Origin: Oscillospiraceae bacterium
GTDB taxonomy: Bacteria; Bacillota; Clostridia; Oscillospirales; Oscillospiraceae
Assembly: GCA_017538965.1 (NCBI GenBank)
Contig: JAFYHU010000017.1
Span: 35,212-99,211, forward strand
Length of the DNA stretch: 64,000 nucleotides
Reading direction: 5' to 3'
Each line of letters begins with the position of its first letter. The first letter of the stretch is position 1. The position numbers were made by a program, and so were the translations under genes. The notes below the pieces were generated by a model that made no database searches, was not told the origin of the DNA, and saw only the letters and a list, made by a program, of their open reading frames with translations. Positions 1 to 9,237 of the stretch are shown in pieces.

Positions 1-344
1 CCGGCACGAAGAGCTTCGGACTGAACATCGACTTCTCGGTCTTCCGCCATAAGTTCAACGAGGGCGAGTTCGTGGATCCGCACTTCGTTCCCAACGAGCC
101 CGAAGACATCATCCCCCTGCTGCCCTACATCTACTGCTGCCATGCCAAGTTCATCAACATGAACGACGAGTTTGAGGAGACCACCATCCCCTACAAGGAG
201 GTCCTCACCATTCTCCGCGATCACGGCTGGAACGGCTATCTGCTCAGCGAGTACGAAGGCGCCGACAAGTACGACCAGGGCTACGAGGTCGGCCAGACAC
301 TCCGGAAGCACCACATCATGATGAAGAACATTCTGGGTTATTAA
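1..344 (+). CDS. C-glycoside deglycosidase alpha subunit-like TIM-barrel protein, 5'-truncated by window edge
   Basis: The reading frame is open from base 3 to the stop at 342-344, so this is the C-terminal ~113 residues of a longer gene that starts outside the window. Visible segments such as GLNIDFSVF, the [18 protein letters not shown] stretch and the Glu in YLLSEYEG are typical of the C-terminal half of xylose-isomerase-like TIM-barrel sugar epimerases, where His and Glu bind the catalytic metal. It lies 12 bp before a DUF6379-type gene, which is the known partner arrangement of C-glycoside deglycosidase alpha and beta subunits. In that family the alpha subunit carries the active site that breaks the C-C bond of a 3-oxo-C-glycoside. 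The family call rests on this partner. Without the N-terminus a plain sugar epimerase cannot be excluded. Confidence 0.72.
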
Positions 345-356
345 GGAGGCGACAAC

Positions 357-797
357 ATGGATAAACAGGTCATTCAATCGGTCGGATTCCGCAATATCGA
401 AGAAAACGGCGAAGTCACCGGCTTCCAGCTCAAAATCCGCCTGCCCTACTACCGGGGCGTATATCTCAGCCAGATCAAGCCCGGCCACCTGATCGTGGAC
501 GGCGAGACCTTCGGCGCGGACGAGATCATGTGGCGCGTCAACGGCGAGGATTATACCTATGCCGACATGCGCAAGGACTGCAAAGACCACTGGCATCCGC
601 TGGAGCCCGCTACCCTGCTCGTCAAAAAGCCCGGCGGCCTGAAGCAGGGCTTCCACGAGATCACCTACGGCTTCTGCTGCACGCATTCCTACATGCCGCC
701 CTTCATGGAGGCGCTGGAAGATCCGGACAAGCCTGCGGTCATCTATTTCCGTGAATTCGGCGAGAACCAGCACCATCGCCGCCTGCTGATTGTATAA
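357..797 (+). CDS. C-glycoside deglycosidase beta subunit (DUF6379-type small protein)
   Basis: This 146-residue protein has a good ribosome binding site (GGAGG, 7 bp before ATG). The start (NIEENGEVTGFQLKIRLPYY), the RGVYLS segment, the VDGETFG strand, the central WHPLEPATLLVKKPGGLKQG block and the final FCCTHSYMPPF segment follow the pattern I recall for the small beta subunit of bacterial C-glycoside deglycosidases (DfgB type), a beta-sandwich that pairs with a TIM-barrel alpha subunit. The gene sits directly between an alpha-like gene and a Gfo/Idh/MocA oxidoreductase, as in characterised deglycosylation loci. Length fits the family (about 130-150). Recognition is by eye, with no alignment run. 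No other role for this family is known to me. Confidence 0.78.
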   Translation: MDKQVIQSVGFRNIEENGEVTGFQLKIRLPYYRGVYLSQIKPGHLIVDGETFGADEIMWRVNGEDYTYADMRKDCKDHWHPLEPATLLVKKPGGLKQGFHEITYGFCCTHSYMPPFMEALEDPDKPAVIYFREFGENQHHRRLLIV

Positions 798-811
798 GGA
801 GGAGAAGGAAT

Positions 812-1855
812 ATGCTGAAAATCGGTATTCTGGGCTGCGGCAAGATCGCCCAGGTCCGGCACATCCCCGAGTATGCCGACAATCCCAACTGCGAGCTCGT
901 CGGCTTCTTCAACCCCACCAAGTCCCGCGCCGAGGACATGGCTGCCAAGTACGGCGGCAAGGCCTATGACACGGCGGAAGAGCTGCTCGCCGATCCCGAA
1001 ATCGACGCGGTTTCGGTCTGCGCGGCAAACAACGCCCATGCGGAGCTCACCATCAAAGCCCTGAAGGCCGGCAAGCACGTCCTCTGCGAGAAGCCCATGG
1101 CCATCTCTCTCGCGGACTGCGAAGAGATGGTGAAGGTCGCGAAGGAAGAGGGCAAGCTCCTCATGATCGGCCAGAACCAGCGGTTGACCCGCGCCCATGA
1201 GCTGGCCAGAAAGATGGTCGCCGACGGCGAAATCGGCCGGGTCATTACCTTCCGCACCACCTTCGGCCACGGCGGCCCCGAGACCTGGAGCATCACGCCG
1301 GGCAAGAACACCTGGTTCTTTGACAAGACCAAGGCCGCCATGGGCGCCATGGCCGACCTCGGTATCCACAAGACCGACCTGATCCAGTTCCTGCTGGGAA
1401 GCAACGTAGTGCGCACGACGGCCAAACTCGCCACGCTGGACAAGCGCGGCGCGGACGGCAACCTGATCGGCGTTGACGACAACGCCATCTGCATCTACGA
1501 GATGGCCAACGGCACCGTCGGCACCATGACGGCCAGCTGGACCTACTACGCCGCCGAGGACAACTCGACCGTGCTCTACGGCACCGAAGGCGAGATGCGC
1601 ATCTATGACGACCCCGCGCATTCCATCGTCCTGAAGAAGAAGGGCGAAGAGCCGAAGTATTTCGACGTCGAGCAGATCCAGACCAACGACAACCAGACCA
1701 AGTCCGGCATCATCGACCTGTGGGTCGACTGCCTGCTGGAGGGCAAAGAGTCTCCGATCAGCGGCGAGAGCGTCCTCTCCGCCATGCGGGCGGTCTTCGC
1801 CTCGATGGAGAGCTCAGAGACCGGCAAGGCGGTAGAGATTCCGGCTAACAAGTAA
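812..1855 (+). CDS. Gfo/Idh/MocA family oxidoreductase
   Basis: A 347-residue NAD(P)-dependent oxidoreductase. The N-terminal Rossmann fold shows GCGKIA (residues 8-13). The EKP nucleotide-binding motif is at 93-95, and the catalytic pair Asp182/His186 is in DLGIHKTD. The C-terminal half is the usual alpha/beta substrate domain. Members oxidise sugar or cyclitol hydroxyls. In C-glycoside pathways a homologue (DgpA type) oxidises the 3-hydroxyl of the sugar so that the C-C bond can be broken by the deglycosidase. Its position 14 bp after the beta-subunit gene and 10 bp before a TIM-barrel gene supports that role, though the substrate is inferred only from context. AAGGAGGAGAAGG lies before the start codon. 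Confidence 0.9.
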   Translation: MLKIGILGCGKIAQVRHIPEYADNPNCELVGFFNPTKSRAEDMAAKYGGKAYDTAEELLADPEIDAVSVCAANNAHAELTIKALKAGKHVLCEKPMAISLADCEEMVKVAKEEGKLLMIGQNQRLTRAHELARKMVADGEIGRVITFRTTFGHGGPETWSITPGKNTWFFDKTKAAMGAMADLGIHKTDLIQFLLGSNVVRTTAKLATLDKRGADGNLIGVDDNAICIYEMANGTVGTMTASWTYYAAEDNSTVLYGTEGEMRIYDDPAHSIVLKKKGEEPKYFDVEQIQTNDNQTKSGIIDLWVDCLLEGKESPISGESVLSAMRAVFASMESSETGKAVEIPANK

Positions 1856-1865
1856 GGAGGAAGCT

Positions 1866-2789
1866 ATGATTCATTTCGGACTGCTGACCGCCATTCTGGA
1901 CGGCTGGAATTTTGAAGAGACCGTCGACACCGCGGCGGAAATGGGCTTCGAGTGCCTCGAAGTCGCCTGCTGGCCCGCCGGCAAGGCCGAGCGCCGTTAT
2001 GCCGGCGTCAGCCACATCGATGCCGAGCGCGTCCTGGAAGACGATGCGTACGCCAAGTACGTGGTCGACTATGTGACCGGCAAGGGCATGCACATCTCGT
2101 CCCTGGCTTACTATCCCAACGTGCTGGACCCGAACCCCGAGAAGAGCGAGCCCGCCATCGCCCACCTGAAGGCTCTGATCAAGGCCTCCGCCAAACTGGG
2201 CGTTAACATGGTCACCACCTTCATCGGCCGCGACCAGCACAAGACCGTGGAGGAGAACATCGAGCTCTTCAAGAAGGTCTGGCTACCCCTCATCAAGCTG
2301 GCCGAAGAGCAGGGCGTAAAGGTCGCCATCGAGAACTGCCCCATGCTGTTCGGGCCTGACCAGTGGCCCGGCGGGCAGAACCTGATGTGCACCCCGGCCA
2401 TCTTCCGCAAGCTGTTTGAGATTTGCCCGAGCCCGAACTTCGGCCTGAACTTCGACCCCAGCCACTATGTCTGGCAGGGCCTCGACTATGTGCAGACCGT
2501 GCATGAGTTCAAGGACAAGCTCTTCCACATCCACTTCAAGGACATCAAGCTCTATCCCGAGAAGCTCCGCGAGGTCGGCGTGCTGGCCTATCCGCTCGAG
2601 TACATGAGCCCGAAGATCCCGGGCCTCGGCGATGTCGACTGGGGTGCCTATGTCTCGGCTCTCAACGACATCCGCTACAACGGCGATGCCGTCATCGAGG
2701 TCGAGGACAAGGCCTTCGAAGGCAGCCGCGAGGATATCCTGAACTCCATCCGCCTGGCCAAGCGCTACCTGAACAATTTCATCATCTGA
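1866..2789 (+). CDS. Sugar phosphate isomerase/epimerase-like TIM-barrel protein
   Basis: A 307-residue xylose-isomerase-like TIM barrel, with AAGGAGGAAGCT before the ATG. The four likely metal ligands are all visible: Glu156 (AIENCP), Asp197 (NFDPSH), His223 (HIHFKD) and Glu278 (VIEVED). Proteins of this superfamily isomerise or epimerise ketoses and keto-sugars, and some act as C-glycoside deglycosidase alpha subunits. This is the second TIM barrel in the operon. It could process the 3-oxo sugar released by the deglycosidase, or be a second alpha subunit. The sequence alone does not decide this. It is cotranscribed with the oxidoreductase (10 bp gap). Confidence 0.87.
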   Translation: MIHFGLLTAILDGWNFEETVDTAAEMGFECLEVACWPAGKAERRYAGVSHIDAERVLEDDAYAKYVVDYVTGKGMHISSLAYYPNVLDPNPEKSEPAIAHLKALIKASAKLGVNMVTTFIGRDQHKTVEENIELFKKVWLPLIKLAEEQGVKVAIENCPMLFGPDQWPGGQNLMCTPAIFRKLFEICPSPNFGLNFDPSHYVWQGLDYVQTVHEFKDKLFHIHFKDIKLYPEKLREVGVLAYPLEYMSPKIPGLGDVDWGAYVSALNDIRYNGDAVIEVEDKAFEGSREDILNSIRLAKRYLNNFII

Positions 2790-2861
2790 GTCGTTCCCGC
2801 GCCTCTCCGCCGTATGAGCGGCGGAGAGGAAATAAAAAGATTAACAGGAGGATACTCTTCC

Positions 2862-4277
2862 ATGGACGAAACCGTTGCCACCCCAAAAGCCCCCAAGAAA
2901 AGGAAGGGCATGAGCTGGAAACTTCTGACCGGTTACGGCCTCGGCGAGGTCGGCTGCCAGCTGAGCTGGTACATGATCAACAGCTATCTGAACATCTTCT
3001 ACACCGATATCGTCGGTTTGTCGGGCGCTGCCATCTCGGCCATCGTGCTCATCGCCCGTGTCTGGGATACCATCAACGACCCGATGATGGGCCAGATTGC
3101 CGACCGCACCCATACCCGCTGGGGTAAATTCCGTCCCTATCTGATCTTCACGCCTCCCTTCCTCGCGCTGTTCAACGTGCTGACCTTTACGGTCTTCCCG
3201 GTACAGGGCGCCGCAAAAGTCATCATCTGCGGCATCTGCTATATCCTCGCCGGCATGGCCTATACCGCCTGCTCGATTGCCTATCAGGCCCTGCTGAACG
3301 TAATCTCTGTCGACTCGCGTGAGCGCCAGCTGCTCGCCACTGCCCGCAGCACCGGTGCCTCCATCATCGGCATCATCCTCTCGTTGGTTGCCATGCCGAC
3401 CATTCTGTACTTCAGCAACACCTTCCAGACGGACGGCACCAAGATGGCCGACGCCCACGGCTACTTCATGGGCACGCTGCTTATCTCGCTGCTGATGATG
3501 CCGGTGTTCTGGCTCTGCGCCGCGATCTGCAAAGAGACCTACACGGAAGAGCTGCATAAGGATCACGTGGAGAATATGGGCTTTGTGGAAAACATGAAGG
3601 GCCTGTTCCAGAATGACCAGCTGCTCATGGTCGTCATCGCCACCATCCTCGGTGCCATCTGCGTCACCGGCCGTTACGGAATCCTGGTCTACCATGTCAT
3701 CTATGTCGTGGGCGGCCCCCAGTACATCTCCATCATGTTTACCGCCATGACCGTCGGCCAGCTGGTCGGCACTCTGACCGTGCCCTGGGGCACCAAGACT
3801 TTCGGGAAGAAACGCTACATGATCATCATGAACGTTGTCATGGCGCTCGGTTTTATTGCGCTTTACCTTTATCCGACCAACAATCCCTACTTCCTGATCG
3901 GTGCCTCCTTCATCGGCTCCCTCGGCTTCGGCGCCCCCGCCATCTGCTACGGCATGGTGGGCGACTCGCTGGAGTATGCCGACTGGAAGCTCGGCAAGCG
4001 TCAGGAAGGCCTGGCCGCGTCCATGCTGTCCTTCGGCGTCAAGCTCGCCACCGCGCTTTGTGCGCCTGTGGTCCTGCTGCTTGAGGCGGTCGGCTATGTT
4101 CCCAATGTTGAACAGACCGAAGCTGCCAAGCACGGCATCAACTTCATGGTCAACATGCTGCCGGCCATTCTGGCTTTCGTATCCTGCATCCCCCTGATCT
4201 GGTACAAGCTGGATGACAAGCGCGTCAGAGAGATCCGTGCCGACCTCGAAGCCGGCAAACACGCCTGGGATCAGTAA
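2862..4277 (+). CDS. GPH-family sugar:cation symporter (MFS), copy 1
   Basis: A 471-residue polytopic membrane protein with about 12 hydrophobic segments. The signature NDPMMGQIADRTHTRWGKFRPYL near residues 80-105 is the classic glycoside-pentoside-hexuronide (MelB/XynB-like) motif. An in-frame ATG exists at 2814, but 2862 is preferred because AACAGGAGGATA lies just upstream and the sequence before it is not family-like. It probably imports a glycoside or released sugar for the surrounding enzymes. A closely similar paralogue is at 31879-33291 in a parallel cluster. A hairpin follows the stop codon, so this may be the end of one transcript or a point of attenuation. Confidence 0.92.
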   Translation: MDETVATPKAPKKRKGMSWKLLTGYGLGEVGCQLSWYMINSYLNIFYTDIVGLSGAAISAIVLIARVWDTINDPMMGQIADRTHTRWGKFRPYLIFTPPFLALFNVLTFTVFPVQGAAKVIICGICYILAGMAYTACSIAYQALLNVISVDSRERQLLATARSTGASIIGIILSLVAMPTILYFSNTFQTDGTKMADAHGYFMGTLLISLLMMPVFWLCAAICKETYTEELHKDHVENMGFVENMKGLFQNDQLLMVVIATILGAICVTGRYGILVYHVIYVVGGPQYISIMFTAMTVGQLVGTLTVPWGTKTFGKKRYMIIMNVVMALGFIALYLYPTNNPYFLIGASFIGSLGFGAPAICYGMVGDSLEYADWKLGKRQEGLAASMLSFGVKLATALCAPVVLLLEAVGYVPNVEQTEAAKHGINFMVNMLPAILAFVSCIPLIWYKLDDKRVREIRADLEAGKHAWDQ

Positions 4278-4295
4278 TCCCGGATAACAGACACC

Positions 4296-4329
4296 ATATG
4301 ACCGGATCCCTCTCGGAATCCGGTCATAT
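4296..4329 (+). terminator. Stem-loop after the GPH transporter gene
   Basis: A perfect 12-bp inverted repeat (ATATGACCGGAT and its complement) with a 10-nt loop sits between the transporter stop and the ribosome binding site of the next gene. The downstream T-run is short (TATTCTTAAGG), so it may be a weak terminator or an mRNA-stabilising or attenuating hairpin. Confidence 0.5.
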
Positions 4330-4346: not shown

Positions 4347-5381
4347 ATGCAGTTCGAAACCATCCAACTGAACGAAAAACGGAACGTGACGCTCACCGTC
4401 ATGGCGCAGGACATCGGCGGTGAATTCCGCGGTGTGACCGCCAGACCGGCCGTGCTGATCCTGCCGGGCGGCGGCTATATGTTCTGCTCGGACCGCGAGG
4501 CCGAGCCGGTGGCGATGCCCTATCTGAAAGCGGGCTTTCAGGCTTTCATTCTGCGATATTCGACCGGGGAGCACGGCCACTGGCCAAACCCGCTGGAGGA
4601 TTACGAGCAGGCCATGGCGCTGATCCATGCGCGGGCGGAAGAATGGCATGTGATCCCGGACCAGATCGCCGTGATCGGCTTTTCCGCCGGCGGGCATCTG
4701 GCCGGCGCGGCGGCGACCATGTCCGTCAACAGACCCAACGCGGCGATTCTGGGCTATGCGGTCCTGCGCGCGGACACTGCAGCGGAGATCGGCGTGACCA
4801 TCCCCGGCATTGCCGAGCTGGTCGATGAAAAGACCTGCCCCTGCTTCCTCTTCGCCACGCGCACCGACAGCGTGGTTCCCATTCAGAACACGCTGGACAT
4901 GCTGAATGCCCTGAACCGGGCGCAGACCAGCTTTGAATGCCACATCTACGGCTACGGTCCTCACGGATATTCTACGGGCGATCCTTCTCTGCTGGGCAGC
5001 GGCGTGATGATCCCGGACCGCGCACAGGACTGGGTTGATGACAGCATCGTCTGGCTGCGCGATCTGTTCGGTGTCTTCGGCGCCGACGGACAGGCGGAGC
5101 CGGTCTGCCGCGCGCATGTAACCGACGACGCGGAAGCATGGCTCTCGCTTGACTGCAGCGTCAGCCGGATTTTCGGCAATGCGGAGGCACAGCGGATGCT
5201 GACGGATCTGATTGCCGTCATGCGCGAAAAGATCGTACCCTTTGCGCCGGGCATGAGCTTTGAAGAGATGATGCAGGCCATGAGCCGCATGACGCTGCGC
5301 CAGGTGCTTTCGGAGAGGCGGATCGAAACCGACCGCTTCCATGAACTGGACGAAGCGCTGCGGCGGATTCCGAACATCTGA
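4347..5381 (+). CDS. Alpha/beta-hydrolase, acetyl-esterase/BD-FAE-like
   Basis: A 344-residue alpha/beta hydrolase. The oxyanion-hole motif is LPGGGY at 39-44. The nucleophile elbow is GFSAGGH with Ser113, the probable acid is Asp174 (TRTDSVVP) and the probable base is His206 (GPHGYSTG). This arrangement matches acetyl-xylan and feruloyl-type esterases, which strip acyl groups from plant glycans. No signal peptide is seen, so it should act in the cytoplasm on imported oligomers. Residues after about 245 form an extra helical C-terminal region with a MTLRQVLS segment whose role I do not know. The gene lies just ahead of GH43 and GH3 genes, which fits joint trimming of decorated plant oligosaccharides. 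Confidence 0.82.
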   Translation: MQFETIQLNEKRNVTLTVMAQDIGGEFRGVTARPAVLILPGGGYMFCSDREAEPVAMPYLKAGFQAFILRYSTGEHGHWPNPLEDYEQAMALIHARAEEWHVIPDQIAVIGFSAGGHLAGAAATMSVNRPNAAILGYAVLRADTAAEIGVTIPGIAELVDEKTCPCFLFATRTDSVVPIQNTLDMLNALNRAQTSFECHIYGYGPHGYSTGDPSLLGSGVMIPDRAQDWVDDSIVWLRDLFGVFGADGQAEPVCRAHVTDDAEAWLSLDCSVSRIFGNAEAQRMLTDLIAVMREKIVPFAPGMSFEEMMQAMSRMTLRQVLSERRIETDRFHELDEALRRIPNI

Positions 5382-5395
5382 CAGGGAGATAAACG

Positions 5396-7018
5396 ATGAA
5401 GCCTTGTTTTCATAACCCGATCATTCCCGGTTTCTATCCCGACCCGTCGATCTGTCGGGTGGGGGAGGAGTATTATCTGGTCTGCTCCAGCTTTGAACTC
5501 TGCCCCGGCATCCCGCTGTTTCACAGCCGGGATCTGCAGCATTGGGAGCAGCTATGTTATGTGATGACGCCGGAAAACGGCTTTCACGTAGAGAAAAACT
5601 GCGGAAACGGCGGCGTCATGGCCCCGACAATCCGCTATCACGACGGAGTCTTCTACGTTATCAACTGCAATTTCAGCGACCGGGGGAACTTTGTTGTCAC
5701 GGCCGAAAACCCTGCCGGCCCCTGGTCCGAGCCCCACTGGCTCACGGATGTGCCGGGCATTGACGCATCCATCTTTTTTGACGAAGACGGTCAATGCTAT
5801 ATCATGGGCACGGCCGACAACTGGCCGGACGGCAAGGGCGGTCTGCGCCAGGGCATCTGGGCCGCGAGCTATGACATTCAGAACTTCCGCATGGACGGCG
5901 AGCCGGTTCCGCTCTGGGGCGGCGCGATGGCAGGCGCGGCCTCACCAGAGGCGCCGCATATCTACCATATCGGCGGCTGGTATTATCTGCTGATCGCCGA
6001 AGGAGGTACGGAGTTTTTCCATTCGGTCACCGTCGCCCGCAGCCGCGGCGTTTTCGGTCCCTACGAGGGCTATGCGGGCAACCCGGTTCTGACCATGCGG
6101 CATCTCGGCCGGAAAGCAGCCATCCAGAACGCCGGACACGCCGACCTTGCGGAACTGCCGGACGGCAGCTGGTACGCGGTGTTCCTGGCCTCGCGCCTGA
6201 TCGGCGGGGTGAGCAAGAACCTGGGCCGTGAGACCTTTCTTGTGCCGGTGTGCTGGGAAGCAGACTGGCCGCTGTTCACCCCGGAAACCGGCAAGGTGGA
6301 GTGGAAATACGACGCCCCGGAGAATCTGCCCTGGGCAGAAATCCCCGCCGAGCCGGTGCGCGACTGCTTTGACGGCGAAGCACTCTCTCTGGACTGGTCC
6401 TTCTGGGGCAGGCCCTACGAGAAGTTCTGGGAAATCGACAACAGCCTTACGCTCCGCTGCCTGCCGCAGACGCTGGCCGACCCGCTGCAGCCCATGAGCA
6501 TGGAGCATACGCACTCGGAAGAGAACTTCGTATCCTTTGTAGCCCGGCGCCGCCTGCAGCCCCACTGCCGTTTCGCGTGCCGGATGCGCTTTGACCCTGC
6601 CGAGGGAGAGTCAGCGGGCATCGCTGTGGCGCAGGCCATGAACCACCAGGTCCATCTGCAGCTTACGCAGGAGAGCGGAGAGAAAAAGCTTCAGCTTCTG
6701 CTCTTCACTGCGGACTACGACCTGCCGCCCTATCTTCCGGGCTTTCGCTCCGTAACCAATCGCGCGGTTCTGGCAGAGAGCCCCTGTGAAGCACAGGATC
6801 TGGTTCTCGAGATGGAGCTGAATGAAAACGATTACATCTTCCGCTTTGGGCCGGACGAGGGACACCTGACCGAGTTCGGCCGCGCAGACGGCGCACGGAT
6901 TAACCCCGAAAAGGTCGGCTGCATGGTGGGAGAGATGCTCGGCATGTTTGCCAGCGGCAACGGAAATACAAGCAGCCACTGCGCTGTGTTCGACTGGGCC
7001 GAATATCAGGATCTTTGA
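5396..7018 (+). CDS. Glycoside hydrolase family 43 (beta-xylosidase/arabinofuranosidase-like)
   Basis: A 540-residue protein with the five-bladed propeller pattern of GH43. The expected acidic triad is visible: Asp16 (FYPDPSI), Asp123 (GIDASIFFDEDG) and Glu185 (SPEAPHIY). The C-terminal ~200 residues resemble the concanavalin-like beta-sandwich of xylosidase-type GH43 enzymes. No signal peptide is seen, so it is probably cytoplasmic and acts on imported short oligosaccharides. It starts 14 bp after the esterase and ends 17 bp before the GH3 gene, within one operon. Xylosidase versus arabinofuranosidase activity cannot be told from sequence by eye. Confidence 0.92.
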   Translation: MKPCFHNPIIPGFYPDPSICRVGEEYYLVCSSFELCPGIPLFHSRDLQHWEQLCYVMTPENGFHVEKNCGNGGVMAPTIRYHDGVFYVINCNFSDRGNFVVTAENPAGPWSEPHWLTDVPGIDASIFFDEDGQCYIMGTADNWPDGKGGLRQGIWAASYDIQNFRMDGEPVPLWGGAMAGAASPEAPHIYHIGGWYYLLIAEGGTEFFHSVTVARSRGVFGPYEGYAGNPVLTMRHLGRKAAIQNAGHADLAELPDGSWYAVFLASRLIGGVSKNLGRETFLVPVCWEADWPLFTPETGKVEWKYDAPENLPWAEIPAEPVRDCFDGEALSLDWSFWGRPYEKFWEIDNSLTLRCLPQTLADPLQPMSMEHTHSEENFVSFVARRRLQPHCRFACRMRFDPAEGESAGIAVAQAMNHQVHLQLTQESGEKKLQLLLFTADYDLPPYLPGFRSVTNRAVLAESPCEAQDLVLEMELNENDYIFRFGPDEGHLTEFGRADGARINPEKVGCMVGEMLGMFASGNGNTSSHCAVFDWAEYQDL

Positions 7019-7035: not shown

Positions 7036-9237
7036 ATGAAACTGACACAGGAACAGAAAAGCTTTGTGGAGGATCTTCTCTCACGCATGACGCTGGACGA
7101 GAAGATCGGCCAGATGAATCAGGAGTCACCCTCCATCGTAGGCGGCTTTGACGTACCCTTTTCCGAACTCATTGAGATGATGACCGACGGCCGCATCTCG
7201 CAGGAGGAATTCGGGCGGATCATGGCCAACGCCACGCAGGACTTTCACGAGGACGAGATCCGCGCGGGGCTCGTCGGCAGCATGATGGTCAACGACCCGC
7301 GCAAAAACAACGAGCTGCAGAAAATCGCCGTCGAGGAGAGCCGGCTGGGCATCCCCCTGATTATCGGCTTTGACGTGATCCACGGATTCCGCAGCGTCTT
7401 TCCCATCGCCATCGCCGAAGCCTGCAGCTTCGACGATGCCCTCTTTGAAGAGACCGCGCGCATGGCGGCGGCGGAATCCCGGGCCCACGGTATCAACTGG
7501 AACTTTGCCCCCATGATCGACGCGGCGCGGGATTCCCGCTGGGGCCGCGTATCCGAGGGCCCGGGGGAAGATCCCTTCCTCGGCAGCCGTTTTGCCCGCG
7601 CCAAGATCCGCGGCCTGCAGAACGACCGGAGCAGCCCGCTGAACTATGTGGCCGCCTGCACCAAGCACTATGTGGCCTACGGCGCCTGCGAAAGCGGCCG
7701 CGATTACAACACCGTCTCGATGTCCGTATCCAATCTGTATAACGTCTATCTGCCTGCCTTCCGCGCAGCCATGGATGAGGGCGCGGCGACGGTGATGGCG
7801 GCCTTCAACGACCTCAACGGCGTGCCCTGCACGGTGAACCGGTGGCTGCTGCGCGAGGTTCTGAAAAAAGACTTCGGACTCGAGGGCTTCGTAGTCAGCG
7901 ATGCCAACGCCATCAGAGAATGCGTCACCCACGGCATCGCCGCGGACGACCGCGATGCGGGCGTTCAGGCTGCCCTGGCCGGCATGGACATGGATATGGG
8001 CACCCATATCTATAAGGATTTCCTGAAGGCCGAAGTGGAGAAAGGGACCGTGCCGATGACCGTCATCGACGAGGCCGTGCGCCGCATCCTTTCCGTCAAG
8101 GTCTGGCTCGGCCTGTTCGAAAACCCCTACGTGCCGGAAGCGCTGATCGAGGCCTATGAAAAGAGCCTGCCCGAGAAGCATGTTGCCCTCTGCCGCCGGG
8201 CGGCGGAAGAATCGATGGTCCTGCTGAAGAACGAGGGCGGGATCCTGCCGCTCCGGCGCGGACAGAAGATCAGCCTGGTCGGCAGGCTGGCCGACGACGC
8301 CAATGAGGTCTGCGGCGCCTGGGCCATGGCCTGGAAGCCGGAGGACTGCGTCTCGATTCTGACCGGTCTGAAGGAAGCCGGCGCCGATGTGTGCTACTAC
8401 CCCTGCGGAGGACCGGAGGGCGATATCAATCTTGAGGAGGCCGACCGGGCCTGCCTCGAGGGCGACGTGATCGTTGCCGTGGTCGGCGAGACCGATGCCA
8501 TGTCCGGCGAGGCAAGCTCGAAAGCGGAGATCTCGCTGCCAGGCGGCCAGCGTGCACTGCTTGAGCGGCTGCTTCAATCCGGCAAGCCGGTGGTCACCGT
8601 CCTGATGAACGGGCGCCCGCTGGCACTGGGCTGGGAGGCCGAACACATGCCGGCGATTCTCGAGGCCTGGCACCTCGGCATCCGGATGGGCGATGCCGTG
8701 GCGGCGGCGCTGCTCGGCGACGTCAACCCCGCGGGCAAGCTCTCGTCGTCCTTCCCGTCCGTGACCGGGCAGTGCCCGGTGTATTACAATCACCCCAGCA
8801 CCGGCCGCCCCGGCAGCAAGAGCAAGTTTACCTCGCGCTATCTGGACGCGCCCTGGGATTCCCTCTTCCCCTTCGGCCACGGCCTGAGCTATACGAGCTT
8901 TACGTATGAAGACCTGCGGGTTGGGGAACGCGGCGAAGAACTGGAGATCGCCATTCGGCTGAAGAACACCGGCGAGCGGGAGGGCACGGAAATTGCCCAG
9001 CTCTACATGCAGGACGTGACAGCCAGCCTCGTCCGCCCGGTGAAGGAACTCAAGGACTACTGCAGAGTAACGCTCAGCCCCGGTGAGGAGCGGGAGATTC
9101 GCTTTACGCTGAAAAAGAAAGACATGGGCTTCTACGACAACGCCGGCCGGTATTTGCTGGAAGACGGTCTCTTCCGCCTCTTCGTCGGCACCAGCAGCCG
9201 CGACTGCCTGATGCAGGAGATCGAACTGAAATTCTGA
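7036..9237 (+). CDS. Glycoside hydrolase family 3 (beta-glucosidase/xylosidase-like)
   Basis: A 733-residue GH3 enzyme with the usual order: (alpha/beta)8 domain, (alpha/beta)6 sandwich (SLVGRLADDANEVCGAW onward) and a C-terminal fibronectin-III-like domain (ELEIAIRLKNTGEREG). The nucleophile is Asp289 in GFVVSDANAI. Substrate-binding KHYVAYGA lies near residue 210. ATG at 7036 is chosen over 7015 because ACAGGAGAG precedes it. No signal peptide is visible, so cytoplasmic action is likely. It could hydrolyse beta-O-glucosides or xylosides of plant glycosides taken up by the operon's transporter. It is the last gene of the block before a GC-poor island. Confidence 0.94.
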   Translation: MKLTQEQKSFVEDLLSRMTLDEKIGQMNQESPSIVGGFDVPFSELIEMMTDGRISQEEFGRIMANATQDFHEDEIRAGLVGSMMVNDPRKNNELQKIAVEESRLGIPLIIGFDVIHGFRSVFPIAIAEACSFDDALFEETARMAAAESRAHGINWNFAPMIDAARDSRWGRVSEGPGEDPFLGSRFARAKIRGLQNDRSSPLNYVAACTKHYVAYGACESGRDYNTVSMSVSNLYNVYLPAFRAAMDEGAATVMAAFNDLNGVPCTVNRWLLREVLKKDFGLEGFVVSDANAIRECVTHGIAADDRDAGVQAALAGMDMDMGTHIYKDFLKAEVEKGTVPMTVIDEAVRRILSVKVWLGLFENPYVPEALIEAYEKSLPEKHVALCRRAAEESMVLLKNEGGILPLRRGQKISLVGRLADDANEVCGAWAMAWKPEDCVSILTGLKEAGADVCYYPCGGPEGDINLEEADRACLEGDVIVAVVGETDAMSGEASSKAEISLPGGQRALLERLLQSGKPVVTVLMNGRPLALGWEAEHMPAILEAWHLGIRMGDAVAAALLGDVNPAGKLSSSFPSVTGQCPVYYNHPSTGRPGSKSKFTSRYLDAPWDSLFPFGHGLSYTSFTYEDLRVGERGEELEIAIRLKNTGEREGTEIAQLYMQDVTASLVRPVKELKDYCRVTLSPGEEREIRFTLKKKDMGFYDNAGRYLLEDGLFRLFVGTSSRDCLMQEIELKF

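Follow-up and report, generated by a model that had tools for sequence, protein, structure and literature searches.

A candidate C-glycoside catabolic operon with an EuCGD-type alpha/beta pair in an Oscillospiraceae genome

Background

Ordinary glycosidases do not readily attack C-glycosides. Forage commonly contains plant C-glycosylflavones. C-glycoside deglycosidases (CGDs), which act as eliminases, are widespread (PMC8563793), and for analogous operons a scheme of oxidation, elimination, hydration and reduction has been published (PMC10628242, PMC12101588). Here we describe a candidate operon of this kind that runs into the left end of a window of 64,000 nucleotides (nt), the window being the whole stretch of DNA analysed (G000:C5:35212-99211; contig JAFYHU010000017.1 of the Oscillospiraceae assembly GCA_017538965.1, which comprises 3.39 Mb in 91 contigs and is 93.9% complete).

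EuCGD, the DfgA-DfgB enzyme of the dfgABCDE genes of Eubacterium cellulosolvens (structures 7BVS, 7DRE and 7EXB), cleaves C6- but not C8-glycosylated flavonoids (PMC8563793). In strain PUE, PuCGD (DgpB-DgpC; 7BVR, 7XR9) is partnered by DgpA (PMC8563793, PMC11239390), which works by a ping-pong cycle with 3-oxo-glucose as the oxidant (PMC11239390). For PuCGE, His143 is given as the base (PMC10628242), and Tyr39 of the beta subunit is described as contacting an aglycone hydroxyl. A parallel between the PUE operon and the AtOGE operon of Agrobacterium is drawn in PMC10628242, which also gives preliminary evidence that the second TIM barrel of the latter performs the hydration. DfgAB has been noted beside carbohydrate genes in a gut metagenome-assembled genome (PMC12101588), and the function of accessory genes in characterised gut systems has been called unclear (PMC8398226). 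Among the titles listed in literature searches on rumen or Oscillospiraceae C-deglycosylation, none describes the present operon, and a search on the family names gave unrelated papers among the 8 of 173 results listed.

Results

A sequence-only reading of this DNA had taken the 146-residue product of 357..797 (+ strand) for the beta subunit of a CGD. This was borne out: the protein (CGDB/DUF6379, DfgB type) fills all 112 positions of the CGDB profile PF19906 with 129.5 bits (cut-off 27.6) and is the sole CGDB match in the source genome, the family being found in none of 14 control genomes. Against DfgB (7BVS chain B) it gives an E-value of 1.1e-57, with 88 of 146 aligned residues identical (60.3%). 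Extension of the contig to the left, which the same reading had proposed as the way to the alpha subunit, recovered (in our locus L002, where window position equals L002 position minus 12212) the complete gene of a 290-residue TIM-barrel protein on the + strand, at window -528 to 344 (L002 11684-12556; its 3' part is 3..344 of the window), preceded by a further Gfo/Idh/MocA gene, g1.

The best solved match of this alpha protein is EuCGD-alpha (DfgA, 7BVS chain A; E 3.9e-156), followed by 8QRZ and then by PuCGD-type chains. The alignment to EuCGD-alpha covers residues 1-289 ungapped, with 216 of 289 identical (74.7%), and the two therefore share the same lid-less form. Residues E155, H157, D187, H224, K226, E260 and E262 are all conserved. 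E155, D187, H224, K226 and E260 are the metal ligands, paired by eye with the AgCGD2 numbering of PMC8563793; they are the same in EuCGD and invariant across seven aligned alphas. H157 aligns with His143 of PuCGD (counted by hand), E262 is the conserved helper Glu, and Y32 of beta is the counterpart of PuCGE Tyr39 by alignment to 9M3A chain B, whose numbering is that given for DgpB. Because the CGDB profile is filled, identity to EuCGD is high and the ligand and catalytic residues named in PMC8563793 are present, we assign the pair, by sequence, to the EuCGD-type CGDs. By analogy, one might guess that the preference of EuCGD for C6- over C8-glycosides carries over to it.

Nine genes on the + strand follow one another in the order g1, alpha, beta, g2, TIM2, GPH, esterase, GH43 and GH3, with intergenic gaps of 15, 12, 14, 10, 24, 69, 14 and 17 nt; the fifth gap becomes 72 nt if GPH starts at the ATG at 2862, which has AGGAGG in front and is likelier than 2814. 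The genes lie where the sequence-only reading had put them. The first gene, g1 (381 residues; window -1689 to -544), lies left of the window in L002. The second oxidoreductase, g2 (347 residues; 812..1855), carries PF01408 and PF22725, and TIM2 (307 residues; 1866..2789) is a xylose-isomerase-like TIM barrel (PF01261).

An alpha-alignment scan confirmed 164 loci, and the counts over 80 loci given below refer to the best 80 of these 164, with gene neighbourhoods taken from a codon-model gene caller. By record title the 80 loci, all of which hold alpha, are mostly Clostridia, including Oscillospiraceae/Ruminococcaceae and Lachnospiraceae; the title of L103 names Actinomyces. Beta directly follows alpha in 75, and the other five (L050, L051, L053, L060, L106) end inside alpha or less than 100 nt beyond it. 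The g1 gene is present in ten loci (L037-L045, L053), and six have the full nine-gene set (L037, L038, L039, L043, L044, L045). Contig ends truncate L042 and L053, L040 shows eight of the nine genes and then a gene of family c17, where the examined stretch ends, and L041 has g1 to TIM2 with an ATP-binding cassette (ABC) importer between g1 and alpha. Two of the nearest records, L043 and L044, name goat reticulum and abomasum; the RUG numbers of several other near records presumably denote a rumen series. Two loci (L078, L082) hold two alpha-beta pairs each, perhaps for different aglycones.

No ortholog of DgpA or of DfgE was found in the source genome (93.9% complete): g2 was the best hit of the DgpA-type query (117.8 bits, 36%; g1 29%) and of the DfgE-type query (88.2 bits, 35%). 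Among the Gfo/Idh/MocA families near alpha, c10 is of DgpA type (546 bits to its solved member) and c12 of DfgE type (430 bits to the solved "P581a DgpA2 and isoorientin complex"). The best solved match of g2 is DgpA with 127.5 bits, g1 scoring 66.9 bits against the same protein. The D-x-G-x-H motif, whose last position we take to be catalytic, reads DLGIH in g2, DIGTH in the DgpA type and DWGVH in the DfgE type; c9 has D-L-G-I-Y. A tree built from 71 Gfo proteins placed g1, g2, c9 and c12 each in one well-supported group and c10 in a poorly supported one (66/33), with g1 joining c12 weakly (87/78) and under a long-branch warning.

A scan of 101 genomes of the genus found alpha (E 1e-30) in 18 and the g1 family (E 1e-60) in 20, including all 18 with alpha; g1 is at least 90% identical in 14 of the 18 and 73% identical in G444. 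Since every alpha genome of the genus carries a g1-family gene, g1 is our candidate for a dedicated sugar 3-dehydrogenase acting on the C-linked glucose. TIM2 occurs in 30 of the 101 genomes, only 14 of them with alpha, and g2-TIM2 therefore looks like a more general module, with g2 as the candidate 3-keto-glucose reductase. By analogy with DgpA, both redox steps may also be catalysed by a single enzyme. The claim of the sequence-only reading that the gene set holds every step plus uptake goes further than the sequences show: g2, the window's own oxidoreductase of this set, is not an ortholog of DgpA or DfgE, and g1, the more likely 3-dehydrogenase, is located left of the window.

Some of these families avoid one another in the 80 loci, by counts that ignore descent and with 33 loci carrying none of the genes concerned: g1, c9 and c10 never occur together (5.6 expected, p 0.0005), nor do TIM2 and c6 (3.0 expected, p 0.026), and g2 and c12 do so once (2.8 expected, p 0.18, not significant). 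An interpretation of this pattern as one oxidase slot and one reductase slot failed in part, as c12 proved to be of DfgE type, an oxidase.

A profile of TIM2 built from 15 homologs matched 2ZDS (E 3.3e-24) and, second of five solved matches, the hydratase 8RO4 (E 1.1e-8); on this weak match TIM2 may be a 2-hydroxy-3-keto-glucal hydratase. It was rejected as a second alpha, since none of its solved matches is a CGD alpha and the genome has a single CGDB match. Two loci of the same genus devoid of alpha (L119, L127) hold g2 and TIM2 beside an ABC importer, a 271-residue TIM barrel and a third Gfo protein of 325 residues, and three more (L120, L125, L128) have a similar order by gene lengths and no CGD genes. 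These five ABC-importer operons perhaps encode another 3-keto-glycoside eliminase pathway, and a hydratase/reductase module g2-TIM2 shared with another eliminase would fit them.

The remaining genes would serve uptake and trimming. GPH (2862..4277) is a GPH:cation symporter (TIGR00792, 356.5 bits, cut-off 231). The esterase (344 residues; 4347..5381) is of the BD-FAE/alpha-beta hydrolase kind (PF20434, 60.9 bits, cut-off 26.8) and scores 129.7 bits with the lp_1002 arylesterase model, under that model's cut-off of 300. GH43 (540 residues; 5396..7018; PF04616, 272 bits) ends in a GH43_C2 domain (PF17851, 96.7 bits), and GH3 (733 residues; 7036..9237; PF00933 and PF01915) is BglX-like (685.8 bits, cut-off 666). 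No signal peptide was visible by eye at the N-termini of the three enzymes. In the genus, GH43 is present in 13 of the 101 genomes, 12 with alpha, and GH3 in 13, 11 with alpha. At E 1e-50 the esterase has matches in 21 genomes, 13 with at least 66% identity (12 with alpha) and eight with less (none with alpha), so that the count of 12 in 13 excludes the latter and becomes 12 in 21 without the identity cut. GPH is the odd gene out: it is 59-63% identical in L037, L038, L039 and L042-L045, 88% in L040 and 86% in L130, most of its neighbours in those relatives being 83-94% identical, which would fit an exchange of the importer.

Directly before the esterase, at 4296..4329 (+ strand), lies a hairpin, TATGACCGG...CCGGTCATA, with one match in the window where none is expected. 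It stands in the same place in 12 of 139 loci, L002 included; these (with L037-L040, L043-L045, L117, L118, L129 and L130) are the same-genus loci that have this esterase. The arms are conserved, the loop is variable and there is no T-run, and processing, stability or an operator are candidate roles. A second hairpin was noted upstream of GPH.

A regulator gene, P0006, adjoins the operon divergently (the orientation is opposite in L039 and L042) and gives weak CRP-family signals (YeiL model 76 bits, cNMP_binding 24.8, each under its cut-off). The palindrome GTGACACGTGTCAC starts 98 nt upstream of g1, and its GTGA-N6-TCAC form is kept 94-105 nt upstream in nine of 11 g1 loci, the present one included, L039 and L042 having only a shorter TGAC...GTCA. 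It has one exact match in the genome, here, and one further site with one mismatch; with at most one mismatch allowed, a reversed control pattern likewise matched once on each strand. The CRP-family regulator probably acts through this putative operator.

Other neighbourhoods of alpha hold further genes. In G151, from another genus, GPH, c15, GH43, a DfgE-type gene (55%), beta, a PuCGD-like alpha, a DgpA-type gene (76%) and TIM2 (76%) form one run, which also contains a protein of the DAPG-hydrolase (PhiG) family (L034 10849-11706). The relatives of this family include phloretin hydrolase, which would fit flavonoid substrates. Proteins of about 870 residues in nine of the 80 loci (L094 7136-9769, L043 1052-3640, L130 4876-7479) gave weak GH106/alpha-rhamnosidase signals only. 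The c5 proteins of about 800 residues, near DfgAB in 18 of 80 (e.g. L095 11502-13904), are possibly glycoside-sensing regulators, the one scanned combining an AraC helix-turn-helix with GH39. The FMN_red gene c20, near alpha in eight of 80, was unsupported as a flavone reductase, its FMN-reductase matches being weak and a term search of PMC7862272 giving no statement of family.

Discussion

The recovered alpha and the beta assignment support the C-glycoside deglycosylation operon that the sequence-only reading had proposed, and we hold with moderate confidence that the nine genes follow a C-glycoside catabolic route. In this route the GPH symporter would import a plant C-glycosylflavone, perhaps with acyl, pentosyl or glucosyl groups still on, and the esterase, GH43 and GH3 would trim it in the cytosol, as their linkage and their N-termini suggest. 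C3 of the C-linked glucose would then be oxidised by g1 with nicotinamide adenine dinucleotide (NAD). At the alpha/beta pair, whose membership comes from sequence and whose mechanism is carried over from EuCGD and PuCGD, the metal would sit on alpha and His157 would take H2, breaking the C-C bond to give the free aglycone and 2-hydroxy-3-keto-glucal. TIM2 would add water to yield 3-keto-glucose, which g2, or g1 in a DgpA-like ping-pong cycle, would return to glucose.

Several observations weigh against this route. The match of TIM2 to the hydratase 8RO4 is partial (residues 128-280 only), and TIM2 (E 1e-60) is missing in four of the 18 alpha genomes and present in 16 without alpha. At the motif position where the DgpA and DfgE types have D-x-G-x-H, and where g2 keeps the His, g1 has D-M-G-P-Y; in three of the 18 alpha genomes (G407, G472, G485) the identity of the g1-family genes drops to 51-58%. 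L041 lacks GPH, esterase, GH43 and GH3 downstream of TIM2. In the order sample of 394 genomes, GH43 occurs in 17, CGDB in 16 (14 over the cut-off) and both in seven (p 6.5e-7, a value which, like those for the genus, ignores common descent); among these seven the two lie near each other only in G000 and G151, lying on separate contigs in G006, G030, G049, G094 and G135.

It is extremely improbable that alpha is merely an isomerase or epimerase of sugars with beta as a bystander. The fold family, AP_endonuc_2, would allow this, but the match to EuCGD with every residue kept contradicts it, as does 8QRZ, a single solved chain that joins a beta-like to an alpha-like part. The sequence-only reading had named two findings that would speak against itself, a 146-residue protein without a match to the beta-subunit family and an upstream TIM barrel that lacks the metal ligands and groups with plain epimerases; the protein belongs to that family, and alpha keeps the ligands and groups with EuCGD-alpha. 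Concerning the substrate, PuCGE accepts 3-keto glucosides of both the O- and the C-linked kind, and a generalist role has been suggested for it by its authors (PMC10628242), so alpha/beta might mainly serve 3-keto O-glycosides of phenols, with C-glycosides minor and the operon a general phenolic-glycoside pathway. We regard this as unlikely, since two subunits, a metal site and a beta tyrosine characterise the C-glycoside form, and C6-glycosides are substrates of EuCGD (PMC8563793).

Within the same operon the parts of the two oxidoreductases could be reversed, g2 being the sugar 3-dehydrogenase and g1 a reductase or an enzyme for another compound. The DgpA- and DfgE-like motif of g2 and its higher score and identity to the DgpA type point that way, but g1, directly before alpha, is common to all 18 alpha genomes of the genus, does not co-occur with the DgpA type in any of the 80 loci and is placed with the DfgE type, if weakly, and g2 with TIM2 also stands in same-genus operons devoid of alpha; we therefore think the exchange rather doubtful. 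A somewhat stronger contender, though still short of an even chance, is that esterase, GH43 and GH3 form an arabinoxylan-oligosaccharide module incidentally transcribed with the C-glycoside genes. Their family content suits the removal of xylan side chains, the hairpin parts GPH from the esterase, and L041 is without this part; against it stand the 12 of 13 genus GH43 genomes that carry alpha and the homologs near alpha in other genera (L070, L082, L083, L094, L095, L107). Of the broad flavonoid- or plant-glycoside pathway that had been envisaged, the linkage of these three genes to alpha is upheld, and nothing beyond linkage.

Returning to the C-glycoside route, we tentatively propose, as a possibility we would not put at even chances, that g1 represents a third lineage of C-glycoside Gfo/Idh/MocA 3-dehydrogenases, in which Tyr replaces the His of DgpA and DfgE. 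With an EuCGD-type alpha/beta pair, TIM2 and g2 it would close a redox-neutral four-step route, fed by the intracellular stripping of decorated forage C-glycosylflavones by esterase, GH43 and GH3. The gene set is fuller than in the characterised gut systems, is intact in several related species and places the eliminase beside unfamiliar oxidoreductases. It opens direct tests of which dehydrogenase feeds the eliminase, of the role of TIM2, and of whether trimming and the breaking of the C-C bond belong to a single pathway.

Among known systems, the AtOGE four-enzyme operon of Agrobacterium likewise combines genes of the kinds that oxidise, eliminate, hydrate and reduce, but its eliminase is an O-glycoside enzyme described as lacking sequence similarity to CGDs (PMC10628242). 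PuCGD with DgpA shares the two-step scheme, the catalytic residues and a Gfo/Idh/MocA partner (PMC8563793, PMC11239390); the present alpha (142.6 bits) and beta (57.3 bits) are more distant from it, and the source genome has no DgpA ortholog. The closest system is EuCGD, with its alpha (74.7%) and beta (60.3%) in the same alpha-then-beta order (PMC8563793). L066, whose alpha is identical to that of EuCGD at all 289 aligned residues and whose beta is 99.3% identical, has the order alpha, beta, c6 (a TIM barrel), c9 and c12 (both Gfo) and GPH, so that, by position, c6, c9 and c12 would be dfgC, dfgD and dfgE. Where L066 has c9, c12 and c6, the present operon carries g1, g2 and TIM2, and it adds esterase, GH43 and GH3. 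Its eliminase adds a member to an enzyme group already known. The operon as a whole is a variant, having dehydrogenases other than DgpA and DfgE and a linked trimming part.

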